From positions 40,532,372 to 40,596,371 of the forward strand of contig CM040089.1 in assembly GCA_022496805.1 (NCBI GenBank): 64,000 nt of DNA. Reading direction: 5' to 3'. The notes below the pieces were generated by a model, which saw only the letters and a program-made list of their open reading frames with translations, ran no database searches and was not told the origin of the DNA. A program made the position numbers and the translations under genes. The DNA is from Pohlia nutans (taxonomy: Eukaryota; Streptophyta; Bryopsida; Bryales; Mniaceae). Of this stretch, positions 30,787 through 53,567 are shown piece by piece. Positions within the stretch are counted from its first letter, which is position 1. Each line of letters begins with the position of its first letter.

Positions 30787-31597
30787 AAGGCCATATTCGC
30801 TAAAATGGGACTATTCCGGAGATTTGGGACCTTTTCAACCCCTCGAAGTTGCCATATCTAGTACTTTGAATTTTGACAACTTCGAGAATTTTTTACTACG
30901 ATGTCGCTAATTATAGTTGCACGTGAACTTCCGTGAAGAAGCTTGGATCCCTTAATTGTCCCCCGAGATAACAGCTACGCATTTCATTTACTTTCGGATT
31001 TCTTGTTTGCGCAGAATCCAAGAATCCTCCTAAGTATGTTCGAACATTTGGATGATGTCTTTGGTCGCTCTCTTTCATCGTGCACCTTTATTGAATGATG
31101 TATACTCTATTCGTACTATGTCTAGTAACACTCGTCCCAGACGTGTCGAACCTCGTTCAACCTAGAAGTAGAGAGTTAGGGTTTTAGAGTGGCTAGGAGT
31201 AGCCCGGATCCCCATAAAGGAGTGTGGTAGTGACCATAATGGCACATTTAGTTATTTATGTAGAAGAGGCGCTCGCGCGCGCTGTAGAGTTATTGCTAGG
31301 GTCCGGTTTTGACAGCTGGTATCCGGATTGGGCACGGGACCCGGACTGGAAACCGGGTAGGGGATGGACGGGTCAGGGATGGACCCGGCCGCGTTTCGCG
31401 CCTTGAAATGGGCGGCTTTAATTAGGGCAGTTCACTGTTCATTTTCGCATAGTGTTTCCAGTCCACCCCTGCGCCAGATTTTTGTGTTTCCGGATGCTGT
31501 GAGAGATCAGGGAGAGCGACCAGGTGGTGAGCAGGTATCCTGGGAGATTAGGCGGAGCGCGCGCAGTCGAGGGAAAGAAGTTTTGGAGCCAGCAGCG

Positions 31598-32552
31598 ATG
31601 GGACGGAACGACGATTGGAGGCTCGGGCTGCCGGTTCCGGATAAGTTGGTGCGCCCGGTTGCTCCGGCCAGTGCGGAACATAGGGAGCAGCTGCGGAAGG
31701 ATTTGCACAAGATGGGTTGTGAGGAATTGCTGTACCTGCCTTGGGATCTCCACAGTAATGCTATGTTGCAGGAGCTAGGTGGAAAGCCGGTACGGGCGGA
31801 ATTCCGGGACAGCGAAATCCGGGGGCAATGGACGGCGTGGAACTCGATACATTGGCGCTTGACGTACAAGTTCCCCAACAGCCCGTTTGGGTATGACAAG
31901 ACCAAGACGGATTCCGGATGGGTGAAGGAGAGATTTTCAAAACCGGTTTCAGAGAAGGACGGATTCCGGGTGGAGGACTGCAAGAACGACCGGGAGAAGC
32001 GCCTGCTGCGGTTCCTGGTGCCCATTTTTAGCCCGGACAAATCCACCACCTGCACAATCAAGCTGATGAAGGCCATTTATGAGGCCTACCTCCACGACCG
32101 GAATACCGGATGGGGAGGCCCAGACGAAGGCCCGGTTGTACCAAGAGAAGGTGGTCGAATCCGGATTGGACGGTGCTGCCCGAGTGACGAACGTGGTGAA
32201 GAAGTACGCCGCGAGGGTAGAGACAGAGGTGGTGGATTTCCGAAAACTACTGGCGGAGAATCAGGCGAGATTCCCATCCGGGTCCGGACCGGATGAGAAG
32301 GTGGCACATCAGGGAGGTATGAATGCACCCTTAGCTAGTAGTGAATTGTTGGCCGCATTTCATGTATCACAGGATGCGCCCGGAATGGAGGAGTTGGAAA
32401 GGATGATGGCCGGGGGTCAATCTACCCCGGAACAGACTTCGAGACCGGCTGCAGGTCCAATAGTGAGCATGCCAAGGGGGAATCCGGATGCCAGTACCGG
32501 AGGGGACCAGTCGGAGGCCAGCCTGGCCAACTTGGCCAACTTGGCAGACTAG
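31598..32552 (+). pseudogene. Gag-like or retroelement-type protein, frameshifted
   Basis: From the ATG at 31598 (the open frame extends back to 31364) the protein has a conserved-looking core: W-DLHSN, RGQWTAWNSIHWRL and LLRFLVPIFSPDKST, then an amphipathic helix. The frame shifts by one base at the GGGG run 32112-32115. It then continues in a second frame (ARVTNVVKKYAARVETEVVD) to TAG at 32550. A further acidic, Glu-rich segment (32616-32869, with one TGA) probably was its C-terminal tail. I recall similar cores in uncharacterised plant retroelement proteins, but I cannot name the family. The breaks make it a pseudogene. Confidence 0.5.
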
Positions 32553-32869
32553 GCTGCTGATTTGGTGGAGACGGGGTCACTCAGGGTAGGGAGTTAGAAT
32601 CCGGAGAGGACCAAGAGGTGGACGGACAACCGGAGACGGGTGGTCAGGAGGAGTGAGAAGTGGAGGCCAGCGAACCGGAGGAACACGAGACCCAAGAGGA
32701 CGAGTCGGACGGGAGTCAACCGGAGTCCGAGGAAGAAGGCGACCGGGAAGAGGTCCGAGAGCGCTGGTCCAAGATGAAAGAGGATGCTTTCCCGCAGTCC
32801 AACCAGGAAGAGGAGGGGGATTCCGACGGCGACCGGGCCAGTAGTCCGGAGGGGCAGGAAGATCAGTAG

Positions 32870-34074
32870 GATCCGGGTTGCAGTGAGAACCGGATCAGGC
32901 TAGGGAGTAGGCTTTAAGCTAGGTAGGCTAGCCCACGTGTGTATAGGACTCTTTTTGTGTGGTAGGTAAGGCGCTTTTTGCCAGTAGGTAGGATTGGGAT
33001 CTTTTGATGTGATTTCCCTTGATTTCCGGATCCCGGGTTTGTAGGATCTGGGCGGGAAATCCGGTCTGGTGGTTGAGGACCACTATTTTCCCAGGAATGC
33101 TTGGCATTCTTGGGGTCTTCTTGTATTACTGTTTCCTTAAAAGCAAACTGCTGTAGAGCATTATCCGGAAATTGTGTATGTGCTGTGGTATTGTTTGTGG
33201 ACTGGTACAGTGGTCAAGAGTCCCTTGGTAACCGGGTAGGCAGTCCGGGTTCTCGAGCGATTCGGGTGTGAAGTCTGAATGTGGTTCTTGGGTGGTTTGA
33301 GGACTATTTGAAAGAGTGGTTTCTAAGTTCCGTACGCTAGGTAATCCGGGTTAGTGGCTGGGCAGTCAGGAGGGGGTACTCCAGGTTGCACTGAACTCCT
33401 GGACGGGTAGTCCGATTGAGGTGCCAGCACTCGGAAGGTCCAGGCGAGGGGAAATACGGGGTTCACGGGAGTAAGACAGGGCGCTAGAATTCCTAAAGGC
33501 TTAGTTTCGGACTCCCCGGATAGTGGCTATCCCGGTTAGTAAGTCGTTGTAGTAATTGAAAGAAAGGGGAAACCGGATTGCACTTGCGTGACACGGCTGC
33601 CGGTTGTGTAAAACTAGCAGTTGAAGGGCAGCACGGTAAGTACCCGGGATTAGGAGTTTTGTGAGTTAAACCGGAAGGTAGTGAAGTTCCCATCACTTGA
33701 ATCAGTAGAGAGGGGTGTGTCTTTCAATCCAGCACCACTAATGTGAATGGAGAACCCTCTGAGGGGAAACAGAGGTTAAACGAAACCGGATCAGGTTACC
33801 AAGGTAGACCGGGGAGAGGAGGGATAGTGAAGAGTCCTCCCCGGAAGGATACCGGATCTAGTTGCAACCGGGTCAGTCAGTAGGAAAAGACCCGGTTCAG
33901 TAGGAAAGAGGAATTCAGCAGGTGACGAGAGAGAGAGAGAGATCACCAGTCCGGGACCATCTCCGGAAACTTCCCACTTCACAGAATCTCCGCGGAACGA
34001 TAACCCGGAAATCACCTCTACGAGCGTTCTTGACACAAAAAAGTGCGTTCTAGGGGAATATCCGGTATCACGTG
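32870..34074. other. Non-coding right part of the gag-like insertion
   Basis: No gene is seen. The stretch remains rich in CCGG words and has a short GA microsatellite at about 33928-33943. Confidence 0.45.
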
Positions 34075-34595
34075 CTACGACAAGACGCACGACAATCTTT
34101 GATTGCAATATGTAATGACGTTCATGGTCACCTACGTTGTGGTGTAGGGTATACGTGATTATGACTTTACATAGTGTATAATAATAACCTACAGAGTGGT
34201 TTAGGGTACACTATACACAGATAATGTCTACTTTTGGTTGCATATCTGCTCCAAATTAAATCCACCATTTTTTGCGAAAGTTTAGTACTGATTCTTGTAT
34301 TCCATTCCTATTTTCACTTCATATACAATCATTGTATATACTACCTTCCGTTCTCATTCGTCTCTGCTTTATATTCGCTGGTCACAAATCATTCAAAACT
34401 ATTCTGTTTTAAAATCCAACATATAAAGGTGATTTGAGTACAACACCTCTTAAGTTAAGTGCCGGGTTTGATTTAGAATATATTCCCCCAACATTCCTTG
34501 AAACCGAGGATGGCTCGTATGTTTTTCACATGCTCACCCCCTTCCCACAGTCACACCAAGTATTAATAATTCTCAACACCACAACACCGTGCAAA

Positions 34596-34764
34596 CTCAG
34601 AGATGTCACTCTTTGTATCTTTTGAGTATCACGTGTGAAAAAAGGGTATTTAAAAGTACCCTAAAAATTAAAAATTATTTCTTACTATAGTTAGTAATAT
34701 TTCAAAAATATGCTCATAGTTTTATTTTTGTAATTAAGAAATATTTGGAAGTGACCTCCTAGAG
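34596..34764. mobile_element. 169-bp hAT-type MITE
   Basis: CGTGCAAA flanks it at 34588-34595 and 34765-34772, a perfect 8-bp duplication. The ends are CTCAGAGATGTCACT and, on the other strand, CTCTAGGAGGTCACT. The right TIR of the giant element has CGTACAGG at this point without the insert, so the empty site is visible. An 8-bp duplication with short TIRs fits hAT. Confidence 0.85.
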
Positions 34765-34845
34765 CGTGCAAAAACAAAATATAACATACATCCTCTTCAT
34801 GTGTACATGATAATCCAACTACCATGGCATGAAGTAATGATTCAT

Positions 34846-35223
34846 AGGTTAAGATTACATTTTAGCGCGTGACAATGTTCACGGCAAATAGACCATGACA
34901 TATAATTTAGGAAATGAATCATACATTTTGTTAAGGGTTTGAGTTGTTTGGGTAACAATTACTCTTCACCCAATCTCCTACGCGTACACAAATTTTGTGC
35001 TTCTACGGGCTGGTGTTTCTGTGGTAAACAATCACCAAGAACTGAAGAGTATGTCTTGTGTTTCTAGAATGTGCGTCTGCCAATTGCTATTTTCAATTTT
35101 TTCCCTACATTCTTGAGTTCACTTCAATCCCCTACTCGACTTTGCATGCACAATCCATTTGTCATCTCATGAGACATGTCGAGTGAACTCATGATGATGA
35201 CTCGCTGTCAGATACACACCTAT
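34846..35223. other. Spacer between the left TIR and the 3' end of the minus-strand gene
   Basis: AT-rich, no gene seen. It would hold the 3' UTR of the minus-strand gene. Confidence 0.4.
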
Positions 35224-35275
35224 TCAACTTCCGCCGTCTATGCAATTTGCCATCGGCAGAAATTTGAAGAACACG
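35224..35275 (-). CDS. Minus-strand gene, last exon
   Basis: Acceptor TTTGCAG at 35276, then 52 nt ending in GGAAGTTGA. Phase 2 matches the donor at 35389, giving 18 codons including the stop. Confidence 0.45.
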
Positions 35276-35388
35276 CTGCAAATTGCATAAAATTTGATCC
35301 ATGTCAAGTTCCTACATCACATTACAGTTTAGGGAAAAATTGAACATGGTAAGATGTAAATGATGAAACTCTGCTACAATACGCTTAC

Positions 35389-35567
35389 CTTGCGAAGACG
35401 GTATTCATCCACACATGGTCTATTCTCCTGAAAATTTCCAAACCAGATACGTTATCAAAACTTGGTATTGCCACACATTTACAATTAATGTTTATATTCA
35501 CCGAGTCCTCTAGCGGTCGTCTAATAATTTGTAAAAAATCGGTTTTCACATGGGCGCTTCCTTCCAC
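35389..35567 (-). CDS. Minus-strand gene, exon 5
   Basis: Bounded by acceptor AGCACAG and donor CGCAAG/GTAAGCG, an excellent donor. It encodes about 59 residues (KTDFLQIIRRPLEDS and so on). No recognised domain. Confidence 0.5.
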
Positions 35568-35805
35568 CTGTGCTGATGAAAAATAAATAAAATTCTAGTG
35601 CCACGCTAGATTATGGTGGAAGGCGCCTAGTCAATACTTATATATCTACAACTGAAGTCTTCGTGGTGCCCGAATCTTCAACTTGATGCGCCCTACGAAG
35701 AAACTCAAATTTCTTGTACAGACCGGGCACCATTTCATTCAAAACTGACGCTCACATCCACTAATCACAAACAGCTTCAATGCAATAATACGACAGAAAA
35801 CTAAC

Positions 35806-35859
35806 CTCGTTTGTCCTCGCTGCTTGTATGGCTGCATGCTGCTCAATAACATCACATTC
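35806..35859 (-). CDS. Minus-strand gene, exon 4
   Basis: A 54-nt exon between ATCGCAG and ACGAG/GTTAG, phase 0 at both ends. The peptide (ECDVIEQHAAIQAARTNE) continues the helical, charged character of the preceding coiled coil. Confidence 0.45.
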
Positions 35860-35960
35860 CTGCGATTACCAGTAAGCGTGGTCAACATCTCATGACTTTC
35901 GTGAATATAACATAGAACATCCAGCAGAACTTTTGAATCAAGGACGCAAATCTAATATAC

Positions 35961-38309
35961 CTGTGTGGCTGGGATAATGTTGTCTACGGGACCTTCAGAT
36001 ACCTCCGCCTCATGGTCCGAGACTTCTCTTGCTGATGCAATCAAGGTGGTTTGATGGGTAATGTGCGTGGAAGGGGAGTCTGTGAACTCACTCGCACTCA
36101 CTACCTGACTCATCCGAATTGCCTCCTCCAACTTCAATTCCCTCTGCCTTGATTCCTCGCGGACCCTCTCCAACTCCATTCTCAATACCTTGTTCTGTGT
36201 TGCCAGCTCCCTGTTCGCCCGTAGTGCCTCTCGATTCATGGCCAATTTCTTCTTCGAGATCTTCTGCAGTTGTAATCTCAACGCTCTTTGTGCAGAGACC
36301 TTCTGCTCTCCACCGTCTGCTGGCACGACGTCGTTGGGACCATCTGACAAGTCGGACTCCCCTTCGGATGGGAAATCTAACAAGGATTCCCTATACGCAT
36401 CATCATCTGATCCGCTGTCAATCTCAATGGGATTGTCCTTATTAGACGGCAGGGAGACCGTCACCTCCTCCTTCACGGTCCTCAGAGCTGGAATGGGTGG
36501 GACTTCAGGTGGAGGCACAGCAGATGCCTCAGAAGTTGGACCCGGAACCGCAGCAAGCACAAGTCCCTCATCGTGTTGAGCAAGCACAAGTCCCTCATCG
36601 TTCTTGATGGTTACCAATGGTCAATTGACCACTGGCACCGGAGAGGGAGTGAAACCCAACAAGTCTTCTGACTCAGCGGCCGTTGAAGAATTCGGGATTT
36701 CCATAGGGGCCACGCGTGCATCGTCCTTAGCTTCTGATACCATCGAGCAATGGATGGAATCAACGGCAACTGGGAGTTTTTCGGTATCGATAGTGCGCTC
36801 GTCGGTAGCAGGAAAACTCTCCTGGGGAACGGAAGCTCCCTCAGTGGTTGCCAGTGGGCAATTGACCACTGGCACCAGAGAGGGAGTGAACCCCAACGCG
36901 TCCTCTGACTCACCGACCGTTGAGGAATTCGGGTTCTCCGTAGGCGCCACGCGTGCATCGTCCTCACCTTCCGATACCATCGAGGAATGGAGGGAATCAA
37001 CGACAACTCGGAGTTTGTCCCCATCTACAGTGTGATCGTTGGTAGTAGGAAAACTCTTCTGGGGAACGGAAACTTCCTCAGTGGTTGCCACTGGGCAATT
37101 GACCACTGGCGCCAGAGAGGGAGTGAACCCCAACGTGTCTTCTGCCTCAGAAACAGGTGTTTCATTAATCTGCGCTGGGGCCATGCTTGCCTCGTGCCCT
37201 CCAACTCGATGCAAAACCATGAACTGCGGGTTGGAGTTCACCTCTGCCCTATCGCCCGCTGCTCCGGAATGACTTCCCAGTTCGTCCTCAATGTCTGCCG
37301 GAGGCGCACTCTCATCATGACGGATTTCCAAATCATTGTATAGTTCATGGGCAGGGATACTGCCTTCACTGACCACGTCGCTGTCAACTCCAGTGGCCGC
37401 ATGCACTGGCGACTTTTCTTGCTCAACAGTGACCAGTGGGCAATTAACTACTGGCGGTTGTGCATCACATGTGATCTCTTCACGCGCAGGTGGCGAGAGT
37501 ATGCGCACTCTGGAAGGAGAGGGTTCGGGTGATAACAGACCAGCACATTCCCCAAGAAGAGCCATTCCTTCGTTCAAATTCCTGGATTCAACGACCGGGC
37601 TCAAGGGTTGAGGCGATTCATGATCGCCTCCTGCTTGCCAAGGAGGGCTGCACGGAGTCAGAGGTACTGGAGTACAGTGCTCTACAGTCTACGCTGGTGC
37701 ATCCCTTGGAGGCGAAAAGTGGTGCTCATTCTTTACGTCCATGTCATTGCTTGGAGCCGAGGCTTCCAGATGTGTTGCCGTGTTCTCGGAAGCGTCGTCC
37801 TCGTCCTCACCGCTTGCTGCATCTGAGCTGCTGACGTTATCAAAACCCTCTTCATCATCTCCCTGCAACGCACTTCCCGAAGGCTCATCCGCGTCGCTCT
37901 CTTGGGATGGTAGAAACTGCCTGGGCTTGCGTTTTATGGTAGAAGGAGGTCACTCCCCCTCGCTCCCTGCCCCTTCATCACTATGGTCACCGTCACGGTC
38001 CTCGCCTGATTCTCCGCCGCTCGCGCCAGAGTCCACATTCAATGCGTCAGTGTGTGTCTTACCCCGGTCTACAGAACTCTTGCACCGGAGTTCCCGGCGA
38101 CGGACACCCGAAGTTTCTGCTTCTTCAGTTGGCGGAGTATGCTTCAATGGATACCACGTGCCGTCTTTCTGTGGCTCATCCAATGTGTCTATGGACGTCT
38201 CGTAGACGTGCTCGAACTTTTGAAGTTCGCAGCCGAGTTGGTGGCTGCTGACCATGATTTGGAAGTTATCCTCCGCCGTACCCACAGCAACGGGTTGGAG
38301 ATCAAACAT
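35961..38309 (-). CDS. Minus-strand gene, exon 3: acidic repeats and coiled coil
   Basis: One frame runs throughout, with stops at 37950-37952 (TGA), 37689-37691 (TAG) and 36621-36623 (TGA). The first part (VGTAEDNFQIMVSSHQLGCE) looks folded. A long acidic Ser-rich region follows, then tandem 79-residue repeats at about 37340-36624, each starting PVVNCP. The end is a helical coiled coil (KLAMNREALRANRELAT) to the donor ACACAG/GTATAT at 35960. Four palindromes are translated here in one frame. Confidence 0.55.
36614..36635. repeat. 22-bp palindrome copy 1
   Basis: Half-site CCAATGGTCAA on the left and an exact consensus right half. Exonic. On the coding strand its centre reads AAT TGA, a premature stop. 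Confidence 0.9.
36851..36872. repeat. 22-bp palindrome copy 2
   Basis: CCAGTGGGCAA plus TTGACCACTGG. Exonic, in the frame that gives PVVNCPL. One 79-codon unit (237 bp) from copy 1. Confidence 0.9.
37088..37109. repeat. 22-bp palindrome copy 3
   Basis: CCACTGGGCAA plus TTGACCACTGG. Exonic, again 237 bp from copy 2, so copies 1-3 share a tandem coding duplication. Confidence 0.9.
37433..37454. repeat. 22-bp palindrome copy 4
   Basis: CCAGTGGGCAA plus TTAACTACTGG, the only copy whose central CAATTG is changed. Exonic, same frame as copies 1-3, 345 bp from copy 3. Confidence 0.85.
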
Positions 38310-38381
38310 CTGCACAACGACTGATTAGGTTAGCAATTGTCAACAATGGTGAGATGTAGTGTCAGATAACAGTAGACGATG

Positions 38382-38403
38382 CCAGTGGTCAATTGACTAC
38401 TGG
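38382..38403. repeat. 22-bp palindrome copy 5
   Basis: CCAGTGGTCAA plus TTGACTACTGG. It lies in the 113-bp intron 38310-38422 of the minus-strand gene. Confidence 0.9.
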
Positions 38404-38422
38404 CACAAGCAAACGAGCGTAC

Positions 38423-39839
38423 CATGGCCGCGATCATGCACTTCAGCCCGGCGGCCACGCATTCGTGGGTTTTTGCTCTCGTGGTCAATGTGTAGAAGTA
38501 GCATAATGAATTGCATGTACACCTCCATCCTAAGTTCGTCTTCATGCATGTCCACCTCCTTTACAGATCCCACCCGCTTTGTCGACTCCGAAGAACGAAT
38601 TTCCTTCTTCCAATTTATTGCGTTTGCCACCTTGGGATTCCAGAAGTACAAGATGCTCACACCGTTGCCTTTTTTCAAGATCCGGGGGGAGAAGAAATAC
38701 GTCTCTGCTGACGCTGGCACGTATCGGCTGTGCATATGCTCATACCCTTTCAATTGCCCACTCACCGCCTTAAGGGTCTCATTCTCATTCGTGCAATGGC
38801 AAATGACCAGCCAATGCGCTGGCCACCTGCCATAGCGGCTCTATTGCAGTATCTTAGGAAGAATCGACTCGTATGAAGAATCCACACCCACATCGTCGCG
38901 CTCCAGCCATCGGTCGATTGCACGCATGTCCATTATGGCTCTATCAAAATGAAGATCTTCGGAATTAACAACGCACCATGATGAAGGGTCAGTGACATTT
39001 ACTGTGGCGCCGGGTCCAAAAGCACCGGTTGGAAATTTCTCAAATCTTGAGAGTGTCTTGTCTGCCAGGACCTTGCTCAGTACCGGAGTTATGTTGGACT
39101 TCAACACATACTCCTTTTCCAATATTCTCTCCATCTCCGCCAAGAATGCATCCGAGGGGGGCTCCTGTTTCCTTCTAGGAGTGTCGCTTACTTTCAAGGA
39201 CTTCAACAAGAACAGTTTTGTCGCCCGCCTGATGAGCTCGTCCATGTGGGCTGAGTTGAACCCATGCTTGCGTTTGAATTCGACCCATGCCGCTCGATTT
39301 ACGTCGTTGTTGACCCATAGTCTCTCGGGCGACTTCTTATTCAGCCACCGAACAACGGAATTCTTCACCTTCTTCCTATCCGTCCAGTCCTTCAAACTAC
39401 AGCAGTGTTTGCTTCTGGGCCGAGTACTCCCCAGATACACCTTGGGAACTTCGTTGGACTCCTTATCCAGCTCCCCTTCGGCTGTCAAGCCAGCGGTAAT
39501 TTTCTGCACCAGCTCCAGGAGTGTTGGCACTCCTAAGCCACGCAGACACTTGAACGCGAATGCCTTCGTGAGTCTTCTGACCCACTTCTCCTTGCAGTCG
39601 TCCTTCATTTTATTCCCAGTGTCGGGGTTCACGAGGTCGCTTGTCTCGTACCATTGAAATGCGTTGTGGATGCCCCTGTACAAGTTATCCGATCCACAAA
39701 TGATCAAGAACTCACCCTGGTACTCCTTGGAGGTCTTGTTGGCATGATTGGGAGTCATAGCGTTTAAAGTCTCCACTGCTTTCTCTTGAAAATTCTGCAA
39801 AACGCCATCGTGCCAGTAGTCAATTGACCACTGGTTCAA
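38423..39839 (-). CDS. Minus-strand gene, exon 2
   Basis: Starts at acceptor ATCTCAG/TTGAAC with a palindrome in its first codons. A second in-phase acceptor (TTTTGCAG) lies at about 39796. It encodes a basic region of about 470 residues with conserved-looking blocks (EYQGEFLIICGSDNLYRGIH, KSPERLWVNNDVNRAAW). TAG at 38841-38843 interrupts it. Another 140 residues follow, shifting frame by one base at the T run 38470-38474. It ends at CATG/GTACGC. No family recognised. Confidence 0.55.
39813..39834. repeat. 22-bp palindrome copy 6
   Basis: CCAGTAGTCAA plus TTGACCACTGG. Lies five bases inside the exon acceptor at 39840 and is read in a second frame (NQWSIDYW). Confidence 0.9.
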
Positions 39840-39921
39840 CTGAGATGCAATCTGAATGCAAATTTGACATGAACAAACGGCACAAAGTCAATATACTAAT
39901 GTACAATCCATGCCCGCGCAC

Positions 39922-41699
39922 CTTGCAGATCTTCCATTCCTGAGACCTTGGTTTGCCGGGGTTCTTTAGATCCGGTCTCCCATAATTGATCCACAGATCT
40001 CGGCAATACTGCACGTGCAGAAGATACTCTGGCGAATCCCACTTGTGTTGATTCGTGTTATTTGTGCGCCGTGACAGCTCCGACAACAGCATCTTATCCT
40101 CGGTCCACACGAAGTCACACTGCCAGGTCCTGAACTTCTCCTTGCGCTCGGGATCCACTTCTTCAAGTGCCAACAGTTTCTTTGCAGCCGCCACAGAATG
40201 TTGCCCATTGATAATGTAAAACTCTCCATTTTTTATATTCTCAAAGTAGAATGGCTCTCTGTCTACCTTGGGCATGAGAGTCAAGGTCTGCTTGGGCGGG
40301 TGTATCCCAGTCAAGTAAATCTCCAGCAGACTCTTGGCAAGTAATTCGTGGAATGGGCGGTACTTGAATTCTATTGGTGCATTGATCATCTGATCCACGT
40401 CGATCTCTTTCGTGAAGTCTTGCCCCCATATGTACATTGGCGCACTTCTGATCTTGAATTGCTTGAGCTCTTCTCGACAGTCGTCGTAGTCTATGACCTT
40501 CCCCTCAGCCGACTTTACCGGGTGCTGATACCGCCGTTCCTTCTTTCGTCTCTTGAGTGGGCTGGGTGCACCAGGTGTGGCCGATGCGTTTCCTTCCCTC
40601 TTCGTGTTCTCGGCTGGGATCGTTCCTGCATCGTTCGGAACTAGGGTACTAGAGAACTTCACTGTGGACGTCTGCTTTCGCCGGCGTTTTGCTGGTCCAG
40701 GTGATCCTGCAACTATGTCTCCCTCGACGTTGCCAGTGGGCAATTGACTACCGGCGACGGAGCCAATTATTTTGGGGCTATCGTCACCCTGGCCGACTTC
40801 ATGCTGTTCCTCATCCTCCAAACTGACCACCATCGCCTGTTCGGGTGAATCTAACTCCACTACCTCGGTCTGTGCCTCTTGCACTTCCTTGCCTCTTGCA
40901 CTTCCTTGTTTGCCCTTCTTTGATTTAGCACGGCTAGGGGCAGGACTATAAGACACTGGAGCGGGCTGTGGCCGTTTCTTGGAGCGGGTTTTCTCCTGTA
41001 CCCCTTCAGTAGGGTTTTGCTGTAGTGTGACCTTATTCACCTTATCAAGAGTTCGCAGCACGGCCGTCAGCACCCTAGTCAACTGATGATTGTCTTCCGA
41101 GTTCAGGTATGCAATATTGCAATAGCCTTAGGAGTAAGAATAGGAGTGAGAAGGGTGTCATCTCCTTCCACCTTAAGGTCTCCCTCATGCTCAGTAAGGC
41201 TGGTTGTGAACGGTTTAGCTTGGAACAAATCCTCTCCTTCCGTGAAATATAGATTTGCCACCATCCCGGAGTTGTTTGCAATCCATAGAATCACGTATGG
41301 GTGGAAGTGCTTGATGTCGGTGACTACGAGGTTGGCCACGCACGAAAAAACAGGAACCGTGGATGGAGCGATCGCACCATTCACATACACCCTGAGACCA
41401 AACTTGAGGGGGTGTGTCTGCTTGACAACTTCGACGAACCATTAGCGAGGTGCGGTGAGGCTTTGCTTTGGCCAATATCTCTTTCCTCCATTGGTCTCAC
41501 CTCGCATGTTGGCATCCAAGATGGGCTCGAACACTTTCTTCAGTTGTCCAGCATACGGGACATGAGCCACAGGGTCCGTTGTGTTTTTCCCCATGACCTG
41601 CAGATCCAAATGTGCGGGACTCATGAGACAGGCTACTGCATTTGACGAGTGGTTGTCAAACTGCATTCTGAATGCTAAGGCTTCAAAGCGAGAGCCTTC
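39922..41699 (-). CDS. Minus-strand gene, exon 1 region with the ParB/DGQHR-like motif
   Basis: The usable start may be the ATG at 41666. An upstream exon is possible because an acceptor-like TTACAGTAG precedes 41699. About 190 residues with TAA at 41442-41444 lead, through an 8-bp duplication (ATTGCAAT repeated, 41111-41123), into a Lys/Arg-rich linker (KRRRK, KRRKKERR). The domain with FYIINGQHSVAAAKKLL follows at about 40180-40235. That motif is the signature position of ParB-N/sulfiredoxin and DGQHR (DndB-type) folds, where it binds nucleotide or contacts DNA. The exon ends at TGCAAG/GTGCGC. Confidence 0.6.
40733..40754. repeat. 22-bp palindrome copy 7
   Basis: CCAGTGGGCAA plus TTGACTACCGG. 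Exonic, read in the third frame (GSQLPTGN) within the basic linker. Confidence 0.9.
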
Positions 41700-41721
41700 C
41701 TACTGTAATTCAACCACCATT

Positions 41722-41743
41722 CTAGTAGTCAATTGACCACTGG
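41722..41743. repeat. 22-bp palindrome copy 8
   Basis: CTAGTAGTCAA plus TTGACCACTGG. Just upstream of the first traceable exon and its acceptor-like sequence at 41700. Confidence 0.85.
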
Positions 41744-42545: not shown

Positions 42546-42838
42546 GAGACGCAATCTAGCAATCGCCTCGGCCACAAGTACGTTCGCCTCGGCCACAATC
42601 TCCTACGCACAGCTTCGACACGGGAATGAGGGCTGGGAGTGACGACGGGCTGGGAGGGGCGACGGGCAGGGCCAAAATTTTGGCCGGGCTGCCCGAGGTC
42701 GTCATCGTCATTAATGTCATCCAAGACTGATTCACATTAGCCACCATCCATTAATGTCATTATTAATAGCATGATTAAAGTCACTAAATTTTTCCATCAT
42801 CGTGAGTTCATCATCGTCACTAAATTTTTCCATCATCG

Positions 42839-44043
42839 TAGTCTCAAAAACACACCCATGAATAGAAAAAATAAAAAAAAGGATTCATTCTATACTTATG
42901 TAATTTAAAAAACACACCCATGAATAGAAAATTAAAAAAAGGATTGATTCTATACTTACGGAATCTCAAAAACTCACCCATGAATAGAGAAAAAAAAAAA
43001 AAAAGGATTCATTCTATACTTATGTAATTTAAAAAACTCACCCATGAATACAAAATATTAAAAAAAGGATTGATTCTATACTTACGTAGTCTCAAAGACT
43101 CACCCATGAATATAAAATATAAAAAGGGATGGATTCTATACTTATGTAATCTCAAAAACTCACCAATGAATATTAAAAAAGGATTGATTCTATACTTACG
43201 TAGTCTCAAAAACACACCCATGAATAGAAAAAATAAAAAAAAGGATTCATTCTATACTTATGTAATTTAAAAAACACACCCATGAATAGAAAATTAAAAA
43301 AAGGATTGATTCTATACTTACGGAATCTCAAAAACTCACCCATGAATAGAAAATATAAAAAGGGATTGATTCTATACTTATCTAATTTAAAAAACACACC
43401 CATGAATATTAAAAAGGGATTGAATCTATACTTACGTAGTCTCAAAAACTCACCCATGAATTGAAAATATAAAAATAAGGATTCATTCTATACTTATGTA
43501 ATTTAAAAAACACACCCATGAATATTAAAAAGGGATTGATTCTATACTTACGTAATCTCAAAAACTCACCCATGAATAGAAAATATAAAAAAGGATTGAT
43601 TCTATACTTACGTAGTCTCAAAAACACACCCATGAATAGAAAAAATAAAAAAAAGGATTCATTCTATACTTATGTAATTTAAAAAACACACCCATGAATA
43701 GAAAATTAAAAAAAGGATTGATTCTATACTTACGGAATCTCAAAAACTCACCCATGAATAGAAAATATAAAAAGGGATTGATTCTATACTTATGTAATTT
43801 TAAAAACACACCCATGAATATTAAAAAGGGATTGAATCTATACTTACGTAATCTCAAAAACTCACCCATGAATAGAAAATATAAAAATAAGGATTCATTC
43901 TATACTTATGTAATTTAAAAGACACACCCATGAATAGAAAATAAAAAAAGGATTGATTCTATACTTACGGAATCTCAAAAACTCACCATTGAATATTAAA
44001 AAAGGATTGATTCTATACTTACGTAATCTCAAAAACACATCAT
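42839..44043. repeat. Central minisatellite of the giant element
   Basis: About 20 units of roughly 55-65 bp, each containing CACCCATGAATA, then AAAAAGGATTGATTCTATAC, then TTACGTAATCTC or TTATGTAATTT. A multi-unit block (GTCTCAAAAACACACCC first) recurs at 42839, 43201 and 43613, giving a higher-order period of about 360-410 bp. It separates the two divergent genes. Confidence 0.95.
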
Positions 44044-44064
44044 TAAAAAAAAAAATTAAAATTT

Positions 44065-44065
<1 letters not shown>

Positions 44066-44108
<43 letters not shown>
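44066..44108. repeat. TA microsatellite
   Basis: About 40 bp of TA repeat next to the minisatellite. Confidence 0.9.
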
Positions 44109-44112
<4 letters not shown>

Positions 44113-44639
44113 TATATTTGCTTATATACTCATGAAACATCATGAGACCTCGTGAATTTCAAGACATCATGAATTACAAGACATCATGAAATAAGCCGTC
44201 ATGAAATATGACATCATGAAATAAGCCGCCCCTATGATTTAGGAGACAAGATTCGTAATGAATTGGCAAATCATGAATCCAACATGTTGAATCATTAGAT
44301 TTTCTAATCCGGTGGAAATGAGTGTTCACCTTCATTACCTAAAACCCTATTCCTATAACTTGCCTTTGTTTATAAAATCCAAAATATTATTCTAAAAACT
44401 AGTGCATAATTGTTTATAAAATCCCTCAATTAATACCCTGAACCCTCAAATACTGCAGGTGCGTGAGTGGAGTGTCCAGATACTTGTATCCATTTCATCT
44501 GTTTTCAAAAAATTCCATACAAAGAAAATTTTGTCATTGATTTTCCCTAAATATGGTCTGATGAAAATTACTTTACTATTGTTAGCCATATACTCTAAAC
44601 CCTGCTGGCGTGGTTCAAGTATTTCAAGATTGTGGATGA

Positions 44640-45720
44640 AAATGATACAAAATTCTGGACAATGTACAATTTCTAGACGATGTACAAATTTCATCCACGT
44701 TTTCTCATCCGACACTCATATTGAGACTTAGAGCATATATGGACTTAGGCATACTTAGATCCTTTCATTTAGGAAACGATATCTATCATGCCATTGCTTC
44801 ACATGCTTTTAGTTTTGTTGGCTTTGTTGAAAGAGATGTTCATTTTGAGCATTGGAATGGACAATGTTATGACATCGTCCAATAATGTATATATAGATTA
44901 CATTTAATTCAAATGTAGCTCACTTATAGAATTGGGCTCAACAGATTACCTATGCAATTATTCAAAGGCGGGTATAAAACCTATCAATGAGGAGTTTTAA
45001 ACAAATTTTGTATCTGAATCGTATAAATTAGATGGCAATTTATGAAAACTATACACTCTATACTTTGTATAGAGCCAAGTCACTTTCAGTCATAAAAGTC
45101 TCCATAAAATGTAACCAAGATCCTTTTAAATTTCAAGTTCCACACCCTTTGATTGATTTGCATGTTTCAAAGTGCATTACACAATTCACAGACGTCTTAT
45201 ACAGTTACCTTCTATTTTAATACATTCTATATCTTGTAGTGTACGTCGTGCTGGAAAGAAGTAGTAAAGACCAGTGCATCCATCTATGGAGCCCTCGGTA
45301 CTAAACGGTTTGAAGTTTGACATCCATGAGCATGAGCAACCAAAGTTGCCAAGTTAGAATTCACAAATTGTGCCATAAAGTGTAGAAAAGAAATACGACA
45401 ATTAGCGGTTGTAATGTTTCTTTTTTGATCATGGACTCATGTACATGAAGCTAATTTTCCATAAACAATTCAGTAAACAAATCACAATACAAAAACCACA
45501 TGTCGGATGAGACAGTATGGATGAAATTTGGATTAGGGTACCGGGTATACGGGTTTAGGTTTTCAAAGAACTCCCTTGCATGGATGGCAATTAGTAAGAT
45601 GTTCAATACTTACATATACAACACATACGATGTACGTACAACTTTTATCCATGCATTAAGTTCAAAAGATCCCTCTTATTTGCATTTTATAATACATGTA
45701 GGAGTCATAAGATGAATTTA
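44640..45720. repeat. Diverged TTAA-family-like inverted arms in the element centre
   Basis: GATGTACAAATTTCATCCACG near 44680 is the complement of sequence near 45520. GTTCAAAAGATCCCTCTTATTTGCATTTTATAATAC-type sequence near 45660 resembles the arm at 3115-3160. The ends are not clear. No gene is seen. Confidence 0.35.
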
Positions 45721-46537
45721 AACTCAATTTATTATTAGGTGTGTTAGAGCTTGATGGTCTTCAATCTCATGGAAAACTAGGTGAGCCGTCTTTCTTAACG
45801 GCCAAATACGTTTTTTATAAGTTTATATCCTAGCTTGCTTAATAATGATAATCAACCAAGCGCTGTCATGCTCTTTAAACTATTTGAGGTGCACAAATAA
45901 AAGTAAGGTATAGCAAAATTCACAGTATCTTATTAAAACAGAAGGTGACTTTACATTTTACAAAGGCAATGTCTAAGCATTTTACTTTATAGTAAACATC
46001 ACGCATAACTAATGCCACTATCTCTAAAAATAGTTAATGGTATTCTTCACACATGACATTGAATTTAAAATCAAGTGTCACTGACATCACTAACCATTGT
46101 TTTAGGGGTCGGCGACAGTAGTCACACGTGATGGGTTCTCCATTTGATCATTCATTTTCATCATGTTTTTATGTAGTTTTTTCTACGATAATTATATATG
46201 TGCTATAATTTTGTTGTGAATTAGTGGGCATGATAAAATTTATGAATGTTTAAAATATCGTCCAATCATATTGAAAGTTTTGTATAAATATATTTTTGAC
46301 AATTGGAATAGGGAAAATTATATTTAAGGTATGTAACGGTTATGGTTACACGCATATTAAAAATGAAAGGGAATAAATTATCAAACGCATGTCAAATGAC
46401 CACCCTTGAGAAACCCTTTGTATTTAGAACACTAAATTTTTGAAATTTCTTGATGGTGTGAAATCTTCATACAACGTCTAATATTCTCTAATTTCAACGG
46501 TCGAACAATTCACCCATAACTCAACTGTAACACCTAA
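45721..46537. other. AT-rich spacer, no gene seen
   Basis: AT-rich sequence inside the giant element. The last 130 bp resemble the repeat at 800-930. No convincing gene. Confidence 0.35.
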
Positions 46538-46800
46538 TTAACCCTTTGACGCGCTACTGTACAACAGTGGTTTATGTGACGTTTCAAACTTAGTTCAAAA
46601 AGTGAGGCCTTAAACATGATTTTCCATAATAATTAGAATCAAATAATGGACACCATACCATCTTGTACTGTATGTTATTCCAATTTCATTACAATATTGA
46701 AAAAACAATCGTGTTAATTTTGGAATTTTAATTGAAATTCAAAAGAAACCCTTGCAAAACTAATTTAAAAATATTAATATGGCGATAGTAAACTATAATG
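46538..46800. repeat. Inverted copy of the 12.9-13.1 kb repeat, TTAA end
   Basis: Starts TTAACCCTTTGACGCG. The following 240 bp are the complement of 12880-13120 (TTTCCATAATAATTAGAATC, CCCTTGCAAAACTAATTT). The other end is not seen. Confidence 0.6.
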
Positions 46801-47108
46801 TAAATAAATAAAGTTGCAACTCGATGCGAAAGCAAAATTGTGGAATTTCCAAATGTGCCCCTCCACCCAAGCCAAAAGGTTGGTAAAGGTTGGTAAACCT
46901 GAGTTACCTGACCCCACCCATCGAGGAAACGTGGCCAAAAGTTCAGTTTCAGCACGACCCCCCAAAAGCGAATTCAATGGTTCACAGTTTCATCCAGCCG
47001 CCAATCCTAAACCGCCTGCATGCGTTCATCCAGTGCCTAGGGCTGAGTCTCTGGTTCTGTCCGTCACTCTTGGTCACATTTTCTTTGGTGCCTCATTGCG
47101 GCGCGCAC

Positions 47109-47180
47109 GGAGGTGCTGGAGCAAGCGGCAAGCGATTTACGGCCGGAGGTGCTGGAACAAGCGGCAAGCGATTCACGGCC
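47109..47180 (+). repeat. 36-bp duplication in the leader of the plus-strand gene
   Basis: GGAGGTGCTGGAGCAAGCGG with its following 16 bp occurs twice in tandem with two differences. This GC-richer stretch (46990-47460) is a plausible promoter or leader. A short ATG frame at 47460 ends at a GTGAGT donor. Confidence 0.6.
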
Positions 47181-47690
47181 ATCGTTATCAAAACCCTGGT
47201 ATGCACCCACATCGTCGCTTTTCTGCGGTTTAGGGTTTTCGATCCGTTGTCAATCTCACCGAGCTGCTCCTGTTGTTGATGAAATTTGTCATTGCCTCTT
47301 TTAGTTTTTGTCCTAGTCCAGATCCATTGCGGATTGTAGAATAATTGCACGCACAGACTGAGGGTCGTGGTTTGTGTTGCCATCGGAAGGCCGAGTTTGT
47401 TTTCTGGCGGAGTTGCGGTTGCTGCATTTCATGGAAACGTCCATTGATTGTGCACTGAGATGGACACGGACAAGCTGCTGACCATCGGCCTCAACGTATT
47501 TTTTGTGAGTCGTACATTTCTTTACGCTTGATACTCAATCTTTATACTGCTGAAAGAAAATGGAATTTGTTGTGATATTTTAATTACCGTATATATGTGA
47601 AATGATTACGGTGGTGAGTACGAACGCTATACGGAAATTTTACGAATACATGGTAATTCGTAGTGTTAGGGTATCCCGAGGGCAGTGCAG

Positions 47691-47712
47691 CCAGTGGTCA
47701 ATTGACTACTGG
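47691..47712. repeat. 22-bp palindrome copy 9
   Basis: CCAGTGGTCAA plus TTGACTACTGG. In the leader or first-intron region of the plus-strand transposase-like gene. Identical to copy 5. Confidence 0.9.
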
Positions 47713-48075
47713 CAGTGCAAAAATTGGTATGATCAACAGAGGCGGACGGCACTGTATAGAATTTCGATGGCAGTCCTAGGAGACTTTGAGTGTCTGTTGA
47801 GTTCGGGTATGGTAGCTTCATAATCTCACAATGTGTATGTGTTGTCGGGCCTCGGATAAGAAAACCACTTGGCACATGAGTGGTTGGAAGTAGCCCACAA
47901 TGGTATGAGTTGTCCGGTTGCATTTTTTGAGTATGTGGACCATAGCGCTGGAGACCACGTTGGGTGTTTTATAAAAACCACTTCAATGAAGTCCTTCGTC
48001 TGTGGTAACTTGGCATTAATCTGTGGATAGTCGTTGTCTATGGTGCTGATGCAAACAATAATGCATATGCACGAT

Positions 48076-48097
48076 CTAGTGGGCAATTGACTACAGG
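48076..48097. repeat. 22-bp palindrome copy 10
   Basis: CTAGTGGGCAA plus TTGACTACAGG, the most diverged at its tips. Non-coding, upstream of the transposase-like gene. Confidence 0.8.
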
Positions 48098-48343
48098 TCG
48101 GATGCTTCCTACTGGTTTTGGTAGCGTCTCACGTAGGAATCAGAATTGGTAGCGTCTCACGTAGGATTGTGTCGAAGGAAACAGGTAATGAATGTTGATA
48201 GTACACAGAAGAGGGCCGATGAAATGCATCCTCCAACCTGCCGGTGGAGACTTGACAGGGGTTTATAAAACCAGGCATCAAAGGCTCGTCCTATTATAAG
48301 TCAACTAATCGGTGTCACTGATGGGACAATGGATAAGTGGTTG

Positions 48344-48365
48344 CCAGTGGGCAATTGACTACTGG
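48344..48365. repeat. 22-bp palindrome copy 11
   Basis: CCAGTGGGCAA plus TTGACTACTGG. Non-coding, about 300 bp before the first coding exon of the plus-strand gene. Confidence 0.9.
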
Positions 48366-48665
48366 TTAGTGTTTCTAAGCATTCCTAAAATCTAAGATAC
48401 GCTAATGTGGGGATTATGTACAACACTAAACGTGTTGGTACTCAATTATGATCAACGGTTTTTTTGGCCGCGTTGTGCAGGCACGTCGTCGAAGTTGAGC
48501 AATGATGGATAGTGATTCAGATTACAGTGATGTGGTAAGAGTGATGAACCAAGTGTGGATCTTCAATGTGGCAGCACAAGTGAGGGGTTTGAGTTCTTTT
48601 AGATGGGCACTCTCTTTGTATAGGTTCAGCACTGAAGTATCCTCTGCTATGCATACACAACGTAT

Positions 48666-49670
48666 ATGAATGCAGCTATGATCAATACACGTTGTGGTTT
48701 ACAGAGAGTTGACCTTGACGTAGAAGATGCAGATGAGGTGTATCACATTCCGGATGAAGATATGCCAATCCCCAACTGCAAAGGTATTTGCAGAGATGAT
48801 TGGTGTAAAAAGGAAGTTCAGCTAGTCCACTCAACTGGAGTGTGTGTGGCTACAGCGTATGTGGAGTTTGCAAAACTGTGGCAGTCTATTGATGGTAGAT
48901 CACCTTTAGGAGAGGAGTTTGTAGGGGTTGTGGTTTGTGAAGTATTACAAGCGGGTGCTTCATTGGAAACTCGCACCCTTCGCAGGTGGTCTATAAAGTT
49001 CACACTATTCGAAGGAGTCAGTCTTTACAACCATGAACGCAAATTCAACAAAGATATTAAAATAAAAGCAGCCAAATTGGGTGATCGTAGGGGAAGTCGT
49101 CAATATTCATCATTGCGACATGCACAACCCCGTGAAATGTCGCGAAAAGACAGTCTCGTACATAAACAATCAATTCGTGAGACATTACAAACTACTTGTT
49201 GCAAGCGGCAATGCTTGAGTCAATTCAACCACGCAATGGTGGAGACCCTGCGTTATGAAATGCATCACTTTGACTCGAAGTCAAAAGATAGTATGAAACT
49301 TGCAGTGCATAGAAACTTTCACTGCATACCAAACACATCTAAAAGAGTGTGTGTTGTGGAAGGGAAGACGGTATGTATGCATGCATGGCGTTTGATTTAT
49401 GGCGTATCGAAGACTGATTTTTATCGGTATCGGGACTATGCCGCCACTGGTCGACGACCTCAACATCATGGAACCCTCGGGAAGAAGAAGATTTTAAGTA
49501 GCACTGCACAGGCCACACAAACAATGTCCATGATATTGTCGTCAACGGCAGATGCAATGCTGCACAGAACACACACAAAAACAAGCGGCATAATGAAAGG
49601 AAAAAAGGTGGTTGAGAAAGTACTTCCAAATGGTACAAAGTGGAAGCATACTCTCGAGGAAGTGAACAAG
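48666..49670 (+). CDS. DUF7869-like transposase-like protein, N-terminal exon
   Basis: 335 codons from the ATG at 48666 to the donor AACAAG/GTAGGA. The protein has an unrecognised N-terminus. A Cys/His-rich region leads to VCVVEGKTVCMHAWRLIYGV with a following basic helix (SKTDFYRYRDYA). This is the short VC-x-F/W-x-GIS-like block that precedes the catalytic region in DUF7869 proteins. Upstream non-coding exons are possible (for example 48481-48534 with donor GTG/GTAAGA), but I could not connect them in frame. Confidence 0.65.
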
Positions 49671-49778
49671 GTAGGAACAGTTAACAAAGATTGCGCTGAC
49701 TTTGAAAGCTGAAGATGTGTTTGGTTGGTTGATGGATACCGTCAGTGGGTGTATTGAACATTACCATGTATTGTGCAG

Positions 49779-51679
49779 GTGCAAAAAGAATGTGGAAAGA
49801 GGGCTATATCACAATCATTATGCAGTAAGTTGAGGAAAGAACACTTTTCAGAGTACCAAATCAAGCGCAGAGGAGATAGTTTTGCTCGGTGCTCTCGTTG
49901 TGATCAACTCACAAAAATGCGGAATGTTCATGCATATGGATCACTAGGATATAACCACACAACCCAAATGCTTGAAGCACACCTACGTGAGCTAGAGGCT
50001 TCGCGCGCTCACTATTACTTGAGTAGAGCGTTAGCATGCTATCGATCATCGCAAGTACTTTGTATTATGCATGACAAAGTTGATCATTCCAAAACAGCTT
50101 CTCCTTACTTTGCAGCAAAGAACAAGGCTGTGGATGGACTTATGAAGCTTCCAGTTTCAGTTACACAGGGATGTTGGCTCATGGACATGGGGATAAAAAG
50201 TACACGCACTATTCGTTAGACTTATATCCTGCTGACAGCAATCAGACCATTGGTTCCATTGCAAGGTTGCTAAGGGACCTTGAAAACCCTTCGAAGTGCA
50301 TAAATCCAAGCAATTTGTTTTTGGGAGCAGGGTCAACGGAACTATATGAGGCTATTCTTGTAGGGTCGGAGCAATGCATCGGCTCCATACCTTGCAAACT
50401 CGCCGAAGAAGGGACCACGTTTACGAAATTGCCTCCAATATTACATGTCCAGTTAGATAACTGTTGGAAGGACAACAAAAGCCGGCACATAAAATGTTTT
50501 TGGTCGCTTCTAGTTGCGAAGGGCATTTTTGAAGAAATTCAGGTGTCGTTTATGGTTGTTGGCCACACCCATGACGACGTTGATGCGTCGTTTGGCCGTT
50601 GGAGCATGAAGTTGCGAGAAAAGGATTATCCAACAATTCCCTTGTTGATGAAATCGTACATGGATTTGGATGACGAACCGTTCATTCCCGGATTGATTGA
50701 AGAGGTACCTGATTTCAAGTCTTTCATCATTGGATTTATTAGCGACAACGACCTTATTGGCCATTCGAAAGGGCGCCAATTTCGATTTTACAGGGATGGT
50801 ACAGGATGGCCTCTGATGCAGTATAAATTGCGATGCACTGATCCGCAATGGCGTCCAGAGCAAGGCATTAAGTTATGGAAGGAGGATGAAGAAGGGAAGC
50901 CGAAATTGCCGAGTGGCACTCCACGTCCTTTGTTGCCGCGGCCAATGAAAGGGCAAGCTAAAATAGTGAAAGGCATCAAAGGCTTTATACAACATTGGAA
51001 GGTTGTGGGTGAAGCAGATGCCACGGGGGAATTTGCCCGCCACAATTCTTCCCTTGTACAATACTGGAGTGGAGTAAAGGAGGCGCTGGAGCAAAGCGAG
51101 ATGGAAGCAGTGGACGTCTTGTGCATGGGATTTTGGCCTCAAACCAGACAATCGTTTGATGTTCAGACACTCTATGATGTTGACGGTGTACTACGTGACG
51201 AATTTGCCGAGGATGAGCATTACATAGGACCACGTAGTTTGCGTCCTAGACAGTCGTTTCGGGTAGGTCGAGATTGTCATGCAGGGTATTTTATGTTAGT
51301 ACGTCCTGCAACCGATAGCAATGCACCCATTTGGCTCGGTGAAGCACGTTTAGATCCAATACTAACGTATGGCGATATCAACCAAAAGAAGATTAAAGTA
51401 CAATGGTATAAGCCTTGTGTACGACGAAGGAAAGAACGCACACTATATGAGAATTGGGACACATTGCCAAACTTTAAATGGGAGGAAGACGAAGAGTATG
51501 AAGAGCAAATGACCAGCACAACTTCTGTGTTAACATCGTGGAAGCCAAGAGGAGGAAATCGTGGTGTTGCCATTACTATTCCAAAACGGCATATACTAGA
51601 AGCGTTGGCTAGAATAGCATATAGCATTCAAGCAACTCCAAATGCCCCGGAAGAAGCGAGCTCATCCGACAGTGAGTAA
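49779..51679 (+). CDS. DUF7869-like transposase-like protein, catalytic exon, frameshifted
   Basis: The acceptor TTGTGCAG at 49778 joins in phase 0 to the previous exon. A CSRCDQL zinc-knuckle pair precedes IMHDKVDHSKT (first acidic site), VQLDNCWKDNKS (second) and VGHTHDDVDASFG (third acidic cluster). This is the D-D-D/E-like order of an RNase H-fold nuclease. The frame moves by two bases within ACACAGG at 50163-50169. Both sides clearly code (LPVSVT before, LAHGHGDKKYTHYS after), so a 2-bp CA duplication is likely. The C-terminus has an aromatic region resembling a reader-type fold (GYFMLVRPATDSNAPIWLGE) and an acidic tail. The stop is TAA at 51677. It is probably the mobility enzyme of the giant element, and probably inactive in this copy. 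Confidence 0.65.
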
Positions 51680-52155
51680 CATCTATAATACAATCTGATA
51701 TGGGATGTATAGGCGATGCAATCTTAGTGCATTCCAACGTTGGAACCAGTGTGTATAAGACATGAAGTTCTGAAATATATACTCTTGCTTGAGTCCGACT
51801 CTTGATGACATTATTTTCCTTTTTACGCTGTGCACTTAATATGATGTTTTTTGACCTTGAAATTGTGCAACTTGATGTTTAATAGGGCATTCTTCTTAGT
51901 GATGACAATGGTGTATCGTCTCGAGGGGTGCATTGTACATTATGTTCATGAATCCCTTCTAAAAATCCCCTTCTATACGAGAGGTTATATGTCTAAATAC
52001 ATTTGTATACAAATGTTTTACCTGTTTAAATGTCATTGGTTTAAATGTTCAAAGTAATACCACTATTGTGCACTCACATGTACTCGTACATGTTTAGTAC
52101 CACCCAACCCCCGAGTATAAGAAAAAGAAATTAGTAACTATTGTGCAACTAGTGT
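51680..52155. other. 3' flank of the transposase-like gene
   Basis: AT-rich, no gene seen. Confidence 0.4.
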
Positions 52156-52159
52156 TGTA

Positions 52160-52528
52160 GGGTACATTCACAGTAACACGACCCAAGGAAACTGTAACCA
52201 GTGATTAATTTAACAAATTGTTAAGCAATAATCTTATCATTTGAATTGATAATGCAATATAAATTAGTAACTACATATGATATATGTCATTATACAATAT
52301 ACTAAAGTTTGACGATGTTTGGGATGTTATTAGTACTCCAAAACGACTAAAATATGGTCGTAACCAGTCGTTTATAACGACTAAAATGTGCTCAAATGTT
52401 CAAAATATGTTACAAAATGTCCTTAAATTTTTCTAATATCTACATAAATTGAAGATATTATTTTCTAAGCACTCATCGAGAGTCGTTATAATTGGGCGGG
52501 GTTGGGTCGTGTTACTGTGAATGTACCC
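52160..52528. mobile_element. 369-bp MITE with 25-bp TIRs
   Basis: The left end GGGTACATTCACAGTAACAC is exactly complementary to the right end. TGTA flanks both sides (52156-52159 and 52529-52532). It sits just inside the right TIR of the giant element. Superfamily unassigned. Confidence 0.8.
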
Positions 52529-52582
52529 TGTAGAACAAAAAAGTACAACGTAATACTAGAGTTCTTTTTAACTCTAGTGAAT

Positions 52583-53567
52583 TACTTCATGCCATGGTAG
52601 TTGGGTATGGAAACCATGTACACATGAAGAGGATGTATGTTTTATTCTGTCCTGTACGGTGTTGTGGTGTTGGGATGATTCGCATAGTAGGATCTCCTGA
52701 ACCGGACGAAAATTGTAATGAAGAGGGGAGGCACGGATTACATTTTCTCGCAGGATGACCTGTAGTAGAAAGGCTACAATGGAATTTCAAAGTGTTCATA
52801 ATATCACCTAGAAGCCTCTAGATTTTATGAAGTGTTGTGCTCAAATCACATTTATATGCTAGGTTTAAACACTGTATAGGTTTGAATGATTATTTTGTGA
52901 CCAGCCAATATAAGGCAGAGACGAATGTATCATGGAAGGTAGACAATATAATTATACAATGTTTGTATATGAAGTGAAAATGGGAATGGAATACATGAAT
53001 CAGCACTAAACTTTCGCAAAAATGGTGGATTTAATTTGGAGCAGATATGCCGCCGAAAGTAGACATTAGCTGTGTATAGTGTACCCTAAACCACTCTGTA
53101 GGTTAATTTATAATTATACATGAATCAAAGTCGTAATCACGTATACCCTAATGCACAACGTAGGTGACCGTGAACGCCGTTACATATTGCAATCCAAGAT
53201 TGTCGTGCCACGAGTATCAAGTGTTACTAAACATAGTACAAATAAAGTATAAATCATTCAATGAAGGTGCACAATGAAAGAGAGCGACCAAAGACATCAT
53301 GCAGCTATTCGAGCATCCTTAGCAGGATTGTTGGATTTTGCCCACTTGACAAAAAGCCCGAAGTAATTGAAATGCGTAGCTGTTATCTCGGGGGACAATT
53401 AAGGGATCCAAGCTTCTTCACGGAAGTTCACGTGCAACTATAATTAGCGACATCGTAGTAAAAAATTCTCCAAGTTGTCAGAATTCAAAGTACTAGATAT
53501 GGCAACTTCGAGGGGTTGAAAAGGTCCCAAATCTCCGGAATAGTCCCATTTTAGCGAATATGGCCTT
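52583..53567 (-). repeat. Right terminal inverted repeat of the giant element
   Basis: About 985 bp, complementary to the left TIR segments. Its inner limit is the GGCATGAAGTAAT block shared with 34833-34845. It lacks both left-arm insertions and so shows the older state. Confidence 0.85.

Follow-up and report, generated by a model that had tools for sequence, protein, structure and literature searches.

In the moss Pohlia nutans, a 64,000-nucleotide stretch of contig CM040089.1 (hereafter the window, numbered from its first base) contains a giant DNA transposon copy of about 23 kb with complementary tips at positions 30787–53567. It is a damaged copy of full length within a large giant-transposon family, and it carries a gene for a DUF7869 protein, a gene for a ParB-like protein and an array of long palindromes. 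We favor, as the probable explanation, a Sola-type giant family in which the DUF7869 protein is the transposase and the ParB-type protein recognizes the palindromes and, from there, labels and packages the element while regulating its two genes.

The palindromes are the part of the element that an earlier sequence-only reading of this DNA missed. A repeat search within the element yielded the palindrome CAGTRGTCAATTGACYACTG in exons, introns and upstream DNA. It has 11 copies at ≤3 mismatches, all between 36614 and 48365, with 0 in the other 41 kb of the window and 0 in 100 shuffles; three of the 11 belong to a single tandem repeat, of 237 bp, in the ParB-like gene (36614–36635, 36851–36872, and 37088–37109) and may count as one. 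Counting these three, eight sites belong to the ParB-like gene or the DNA immediately ahead of it, in exons as well as introns. The others of this group are a coding site (37433–37454), a site in each of two introns placed by eye (the second, 38382–38403; the first, 39813–39834), a coding site in the linker peptide GSQLPTG (40733–40754) and one that precedes the ATG by about 55 bp (41722–41743). The remaining three are located upstream of the transposase gene, at 47691–47712, 48076–48097 (with 3 mismatches) and 48344–48365.

Palindromes were found in all 48 of the ParB-like loci examined, in three versions that match three ParB clades. The 30 nearer loci, the window's own among them, have 1 to 8 sites each at ≤4 mismatches. 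When six distant loci were searched without a motif, five proved to have repeated palindromes of another kind: CAGTGGGCAATTGCCCACTG in L044 and L045, with a weaker form in L042, and CACTGTGCAATTGCACAGTG in L043 and L046; none was repeated in L041. Another 12 loci extended the distant sample to 18, drawn from the 35 matches at ≤54% identity, and each of the 18 has at least one site of some version, L041, L052, L057 and L058 having only one. By the majority of sites, 30 loci fall into class A, 11 into class B and 7 into class C, and their identity to the window's ParB-like protein is 40–46% for B and 43–54% for C. A limit of ≤3 mismatches gives 176 own-class sites, distributed over 48/48 loci, against 0 for same-letter shuffled palindromes in each of 10 draws. 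On the tree of the ParB domain every class is separated from the rest by one branch (support 99, 94, and 100), and the class changes only twice, which is the minimum, against a mean of 16.4 after shuffling. Version B is close to A, since the A pattern at ≤2 mismatches also fits L044, L045, L049–L051, L054 and L056, and in 5 of the 11 B loci one site is nearer to A.

Persistence of the site in the first intron is a stronger sign than the match with the clades. An own-class site at ≤2 mismatches occupies the first intron in 29/30 A, 7/11 B and 7/7 C loci, and shuffled palindromes at ≤3 mismatches gave 0 in 200 draws; no such site was found in L020, L042, L047 or L048, and that of L041 is weak. 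Between classes, the intron flanks are 48–51% alike, no better than after shuffling, and the sites are 69–78% alike, a figure helped by the picking of motifs at ≤6 mismatches. At this limit of ≤6 mismatches, the linker site is present in 30/30 A, 11/11 B and 0/7 C loci, and the upstream site in 24/30, 10/11 and 1/5, respectively.

The ParB-like gene runs leftward on the minus strand from an ATG at 41666, with the ParB-fold exon, to an uncertain 3′ end (35952–41666). Its introns were placed by eye at 39921–39795 and 38422–38310. Structure prediction gives the protein a ParB N-domain fold, in line with the ParB half of the ParB/DGQHR-like gene of the sequence-only reading. For the DGQHR half, the protein contains NGQHS, which resembles the DGQHR motif of DndB-like proteins; no NCBIfam match at the cut-off was obtained. 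A second homologue search, made with the alignment, gave the same eight proteins. Relatives were found neither in IMG/VR nor in phages, sequence searches of the PDB found nothing, and a viral fold library gave nothing under E 0.001.

Several points limit the case that this protein binds the palindromes. The phosphate-binding motif GERRxR has no match in it, and the alignment rows that reach the motif read GQHS(W/V)(A/S), in a register set by eye. Use of cytidine triphosphate (CTP) in the canonical way is not supported by the sequence, the arginines of the CTP motif being missing. The sites and the gene travel together, so their correspondence indicates joint divergence and not binding by itself, and the transposon copies compared are not independent. 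Within a class the first-intron flanks are themselves 67–84% alike and the contrast between site and flank is small; for class A it was 96% against 84% in a gapped alignment, which was used because an ungapped one overstates the contrast owing to indels. The shuffle control also exposed the looseness of the 6-mismatch limit, which counts slightly against this reading; the strict counts held.

One other explanation of the palindromes, unlikely in our judgment but to be taken seriously, is that the N-terminal part of the transposase or a host transcription factor binds them as internal transposition or promoter elements, and that the ParB-like protein does something else. It draws on the sites upstream of the transposase gene, which occur in the window and in two other copies, and on a separate DUF7869 locus, L002. 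This 4.3-kb contig from a cyanobacterial metagenome bin is the sole relative of the transposase found in the collection of bacterial and archaeal genomes, and is probably a eukaryotic contaminant carrying a plant-like transposon gene. Its open DUF7869 frame has 963 codons and 47% identity in the best segment. Another palindrome, TTTAGCTCGANTCGAGCTAAA, has three near-perfect copies upstream of the frame, four weaker ones downstream and 0 inside, making seven sites at a limit of ≤5 mismatches, where 40 shuffles gave 0; in the window it has 0 sites at ≤4 mismatches. A long-palindrome array around a DUF7869 gene is thus not peculiar to the window element, and in L002 the sites flank the transposase gene on both sides, with no ParB-like gene seen in the 4.3 kb, where no search was aimed at one. 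However, none of the 11 sites of the window lies in the terminal inverted repeats (TIRs), and eight belong to the ParB-like gene or the DNA immediately ahead of it. Long even palindromes also suit a dimeric binder of the ParB type.

The DUF7869 gene is oriented rightward on the plus strand (48636–51679). Its first coding part is in frame at 48636–49712, its 5′ end is uncertain and an intron was placed by eye at 49671–49778. The catalytic frame, 50084–51679, matches PF25273 with E 9.2e-41, so the likeness to DUF7869 claimed earlier is borne out by profile search. In the predicted structure, strands and helices follow one another as in RNase H; D101/D104, D228 and D268/D270 are conserved, as are other acidic residues. 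Because of this fold and the conserved aspartates, the protein looks like a transposase, and the predicted fold argues that DUF7869 is a transposase domain. With regard to the KDZ transposase domain, only DUF7869 and weak chance matches came out of the Pfam scans. Among the 120 matches listed, three homologues are named by organism, all from the mosses Ceratodon and Physcomitrium (41–48% identity). No relatives of the transposase were found in IMG/VR or on plasmids, and no mention of DUF7869 was found in the open-licence PMC literature. At the C-terminus of the homologous transposase P0001, residues ~490–607 show a weak BAH-like match (ORC1 BAH, EBS) and might form a chromatin reader.

The ends of the element are as the sequence-only reading described them. 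The left tip, AAGGCCATATTCGC, begins at 30787, its reverse complement ends at 53567, and CCTT adjoins each tip as a target-site duplication (TSD; 30783–30786 and 53568–53571). The inverted homology of about 1 kb is recovered when the arms are aligned as reverse complements, in three blocks which together cover ~987 bp of the right arm (52581–53567, minus strand). The outer block pairs 30787–31132 (plus strand) with 53567–53220 at 92% identity over 349 columns. The inner blocks of the left arm (34087–34838, plus strand) pair 34087–34453 with 53208–52825 at 85% and 34774–34838 with 52650–52581 at 86%.

This anatomy fits a Sola-type giant transposon. Sola elements have a DDD transposase, a 4-bp TSD, TIRs of 11–1124 bp and in some cases a length above 15 kb, and they are reported in the moss Physcomitrella (PMC10741241). 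The window element is alike in its 4-bp TSD, its ~987-bp TIR in blocks and its occurrence in a moss, and its conserved aspartates may be those of a DDD transposase (PMC10741241; PMC3627910). Most Sola elements are 2–9 kb long, in contrast to ~23 kb here, and a link between Sola and DUF7869 is putative. A closer counterpart is Sola1-1_Ec32, a giant Sola1 of Ectocarpus of more than 20 kb, in which the transposase and a ParB-like gene occupy opposite strands (PMC12477816); the same arrangement is shared by the window element and by the further loci on C17 and C5 described below. Since 4-bp TSDs and a putative DDD transposase fit Sola and this ParB-carrying giant is published, the earlier statement that no named plant superfamily has this gene pair and these ends is not supported. 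The pairing of a transposase with a ParB-like gene is already known from algae, so that two features differ from the published passages: the palindromic sites and the missing methylase domain. The 1104-aa protein of Sola1-1_Ec32 also contains a DNA methyltransferase domain, whereas Pfam found none above cut-off in the frames of the ParB-like gene, whose C-terminal part is broken, or in the six homologues scanned, and the passages of PMC12477816 do not mention palindromic sites. Those passages propose that ParB-like proteins of algal giant transposons bind and mark their own element, and do not name a binding site. Beyond this paper, no eukaryotic transposon with a ParB-like protein appeared among the papers listed from open-licence PMC, going by their titles and the openings of their abstracts.

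A new superfamily unrelated to Sola, with the same kind of gene pair, is improbable, though it retains a real share of our doubt. The DUF7869 protein could not be linked by sequence to a curated Sola transposase, and the tips AAGGCC are not described in the Sola literature consulted. Against this, the conserved aspartates, the 4-bp TSD, the TIR length, the size and the existence of Sola in a moss all match the published description, and Sola1-1_Ec32 has its two genes in opposite orientation as well.

It is very improbable that the motif merely reflects a constraint on peptides (GQLPTG, VNCPLAT) or the spread of small nested repeats and is not a protein-binding site. The ParB-like frame yields readable peptides at four of the 11 sites, no six-residue stretch of the linker is better conserved than GQLPT, and three sites lie in the 237-bp tandem repeat. 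The same DNA occurs in introns, in upstream DNA and in other frames, for which a peptide constraint was rejected as the sole cause, and outside the tandem copies the flanks have little in common past about four bases.

That the TIRs belong to a segmental inversion and are not transposon ends is next to impossible; no support for it was found, and it was rejected on the other copies of the element (C17 and C5). The 14-base tip has 55 exact matches in the 698-Mb genome, against 0 for the tip read backwards. The ParB-like frame has at least 104 matches, from 97 scored candidates out of 1,089, at identities from 100 down to ~40%. Taking the best 50 of the 104 matches, 16 of the 55 tips have a ParB-like match within 40 kb, and all 16, including the window's own two tips, point inward, with 0 outward. 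Two further elements, C17:11722930–11743500 and C5:254351–274847, ~20.5 kb each, have both genes between TIRs, so the genome-wide searches found both the full-length copies and the second locus that the sequence-only reading called for. Each has, without regard to internal stops, a full-length DUF7869 match in a single piece (634 residues, 96%), and the ParB match contains 0 stops in the C5 element and one in the C17 element. Among six tip pairs, the TSDs agree at 4/4 bases in two (CCTT in the window and ACAT on C19) and at 3/4 bases in three (C1, CTTT/CTTA; C17, CATG/CATC; C5, TAAC/CAAC). They are unlike at the pair on C3, which was rejected as a single element. The C19 element with the perfect ACAT duplication (C19:21079049–21095330; L065, L066) is 16.3 kb long and has the same transposase fragment at both ends in opposite orientation, with the transposase tail and palindromic sites mirrored; no ParB match was found within it. 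It is probably a fold-back derivative of the window's transposon family.

Both genes of the window copy are damaged by stop codons and frame breaks relative to their homologues. Compared with P0122, the ParB-like gene has a stop at ~41442–41444 and a frame break near 41110, and its C-terminal part contains in-frame stop codons (e.g., 38841–38843); the DUF7869 gene has a frame break against P0001 at 50159–50165. The two genes diverge from a minisatellite of 20 copies of a ~60-bp unit (42837–44039), which agrees with the earlier description of two divergent spliced genes, splice sites being set by eye. The left TIR is split by 31133–34086 (2,954 bp, GC 55% against 40% in the outer TIR block), an interruption absent from that description. 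Coordinates of the genome-wide tip and ParB matches put the ParB-side tip 9.0 kb from the ParB match in the window; of nine other copies, six have 6.1–6.6 kb and three have 11–28 kb. Because of the shorter distance in these six, the stretch is probably an insert specific to the window copy. Its open frames (31361–32296 and 32070–32552) had no Pfam match, and it has no visible TIRs of its own and no clear TSD. A small nested repeat of 82% identity pairs 46560–46779 inside the element with 12888–13107 outside. Left of the element lie a ~1-kb inverted repeat onto itself (29262–30260; 92.5% over 1003 columns) and protein-kinase-like open frames (21157–27501), three of which match Pkinase, in one case below the cut-off. 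A tRNA scan gave 0. The element tip had no result in IMG/VR, and the lone palindrome-like site on one IMG/VR contig (L001), which resembles tailed-phage DNA, was taken as chance.

The bacterial systems offer a model for what the ParB-like protein may do. In bacteria, parS sites are found near parB. The modelled N-domain fold resembles that of ParB and KorB, the palindromes dispersed through and around the gene for the protein resemble cognate sites in the manner of parS or OB, and KorB can act from operators at a distance (PMC11790492). The element protein differs from them in that it lacks GERRxR, is eukaryotic, has introns in its gene and resides in a transposon, with no ParA noticed. In the mechanism we propose, the DUF7869 transposase would cut at the tips and make the 4-bp duplications, the latter observed together with the tips themselves. 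The ParB-like protein, as a dimer, would bind the 20–26-bp palindromes within its own gene and those upstream of either gene, so that both genes would be under self-control. Loading at the palindromes would leave the element marked, packaged and possibly compacted, as bacterial ParB or KorB does from parS or OB sites; the altered CTP motif calls for caution on sliding or nucleotide use.

More speculatively, and with considerable doubt, the family may represent a eukaryotic partition-like system, in which a ParB-type clamp loads at element-specific palindromes, spreads over the 20-kb element and tags it as self, whether for regulation, for synapsis or as protection from silencing; one genome would then house at least three specificities insulated from one another. 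The palindromes provide candidate sites for the self-marking proposed for ParB-like proteins, in three natural versions and alongside roughly a hundred ParB-like matches within a single genome, which makes the idea directly testable. If it is true, a parS-like recognition system would operate inside plant chromatin.

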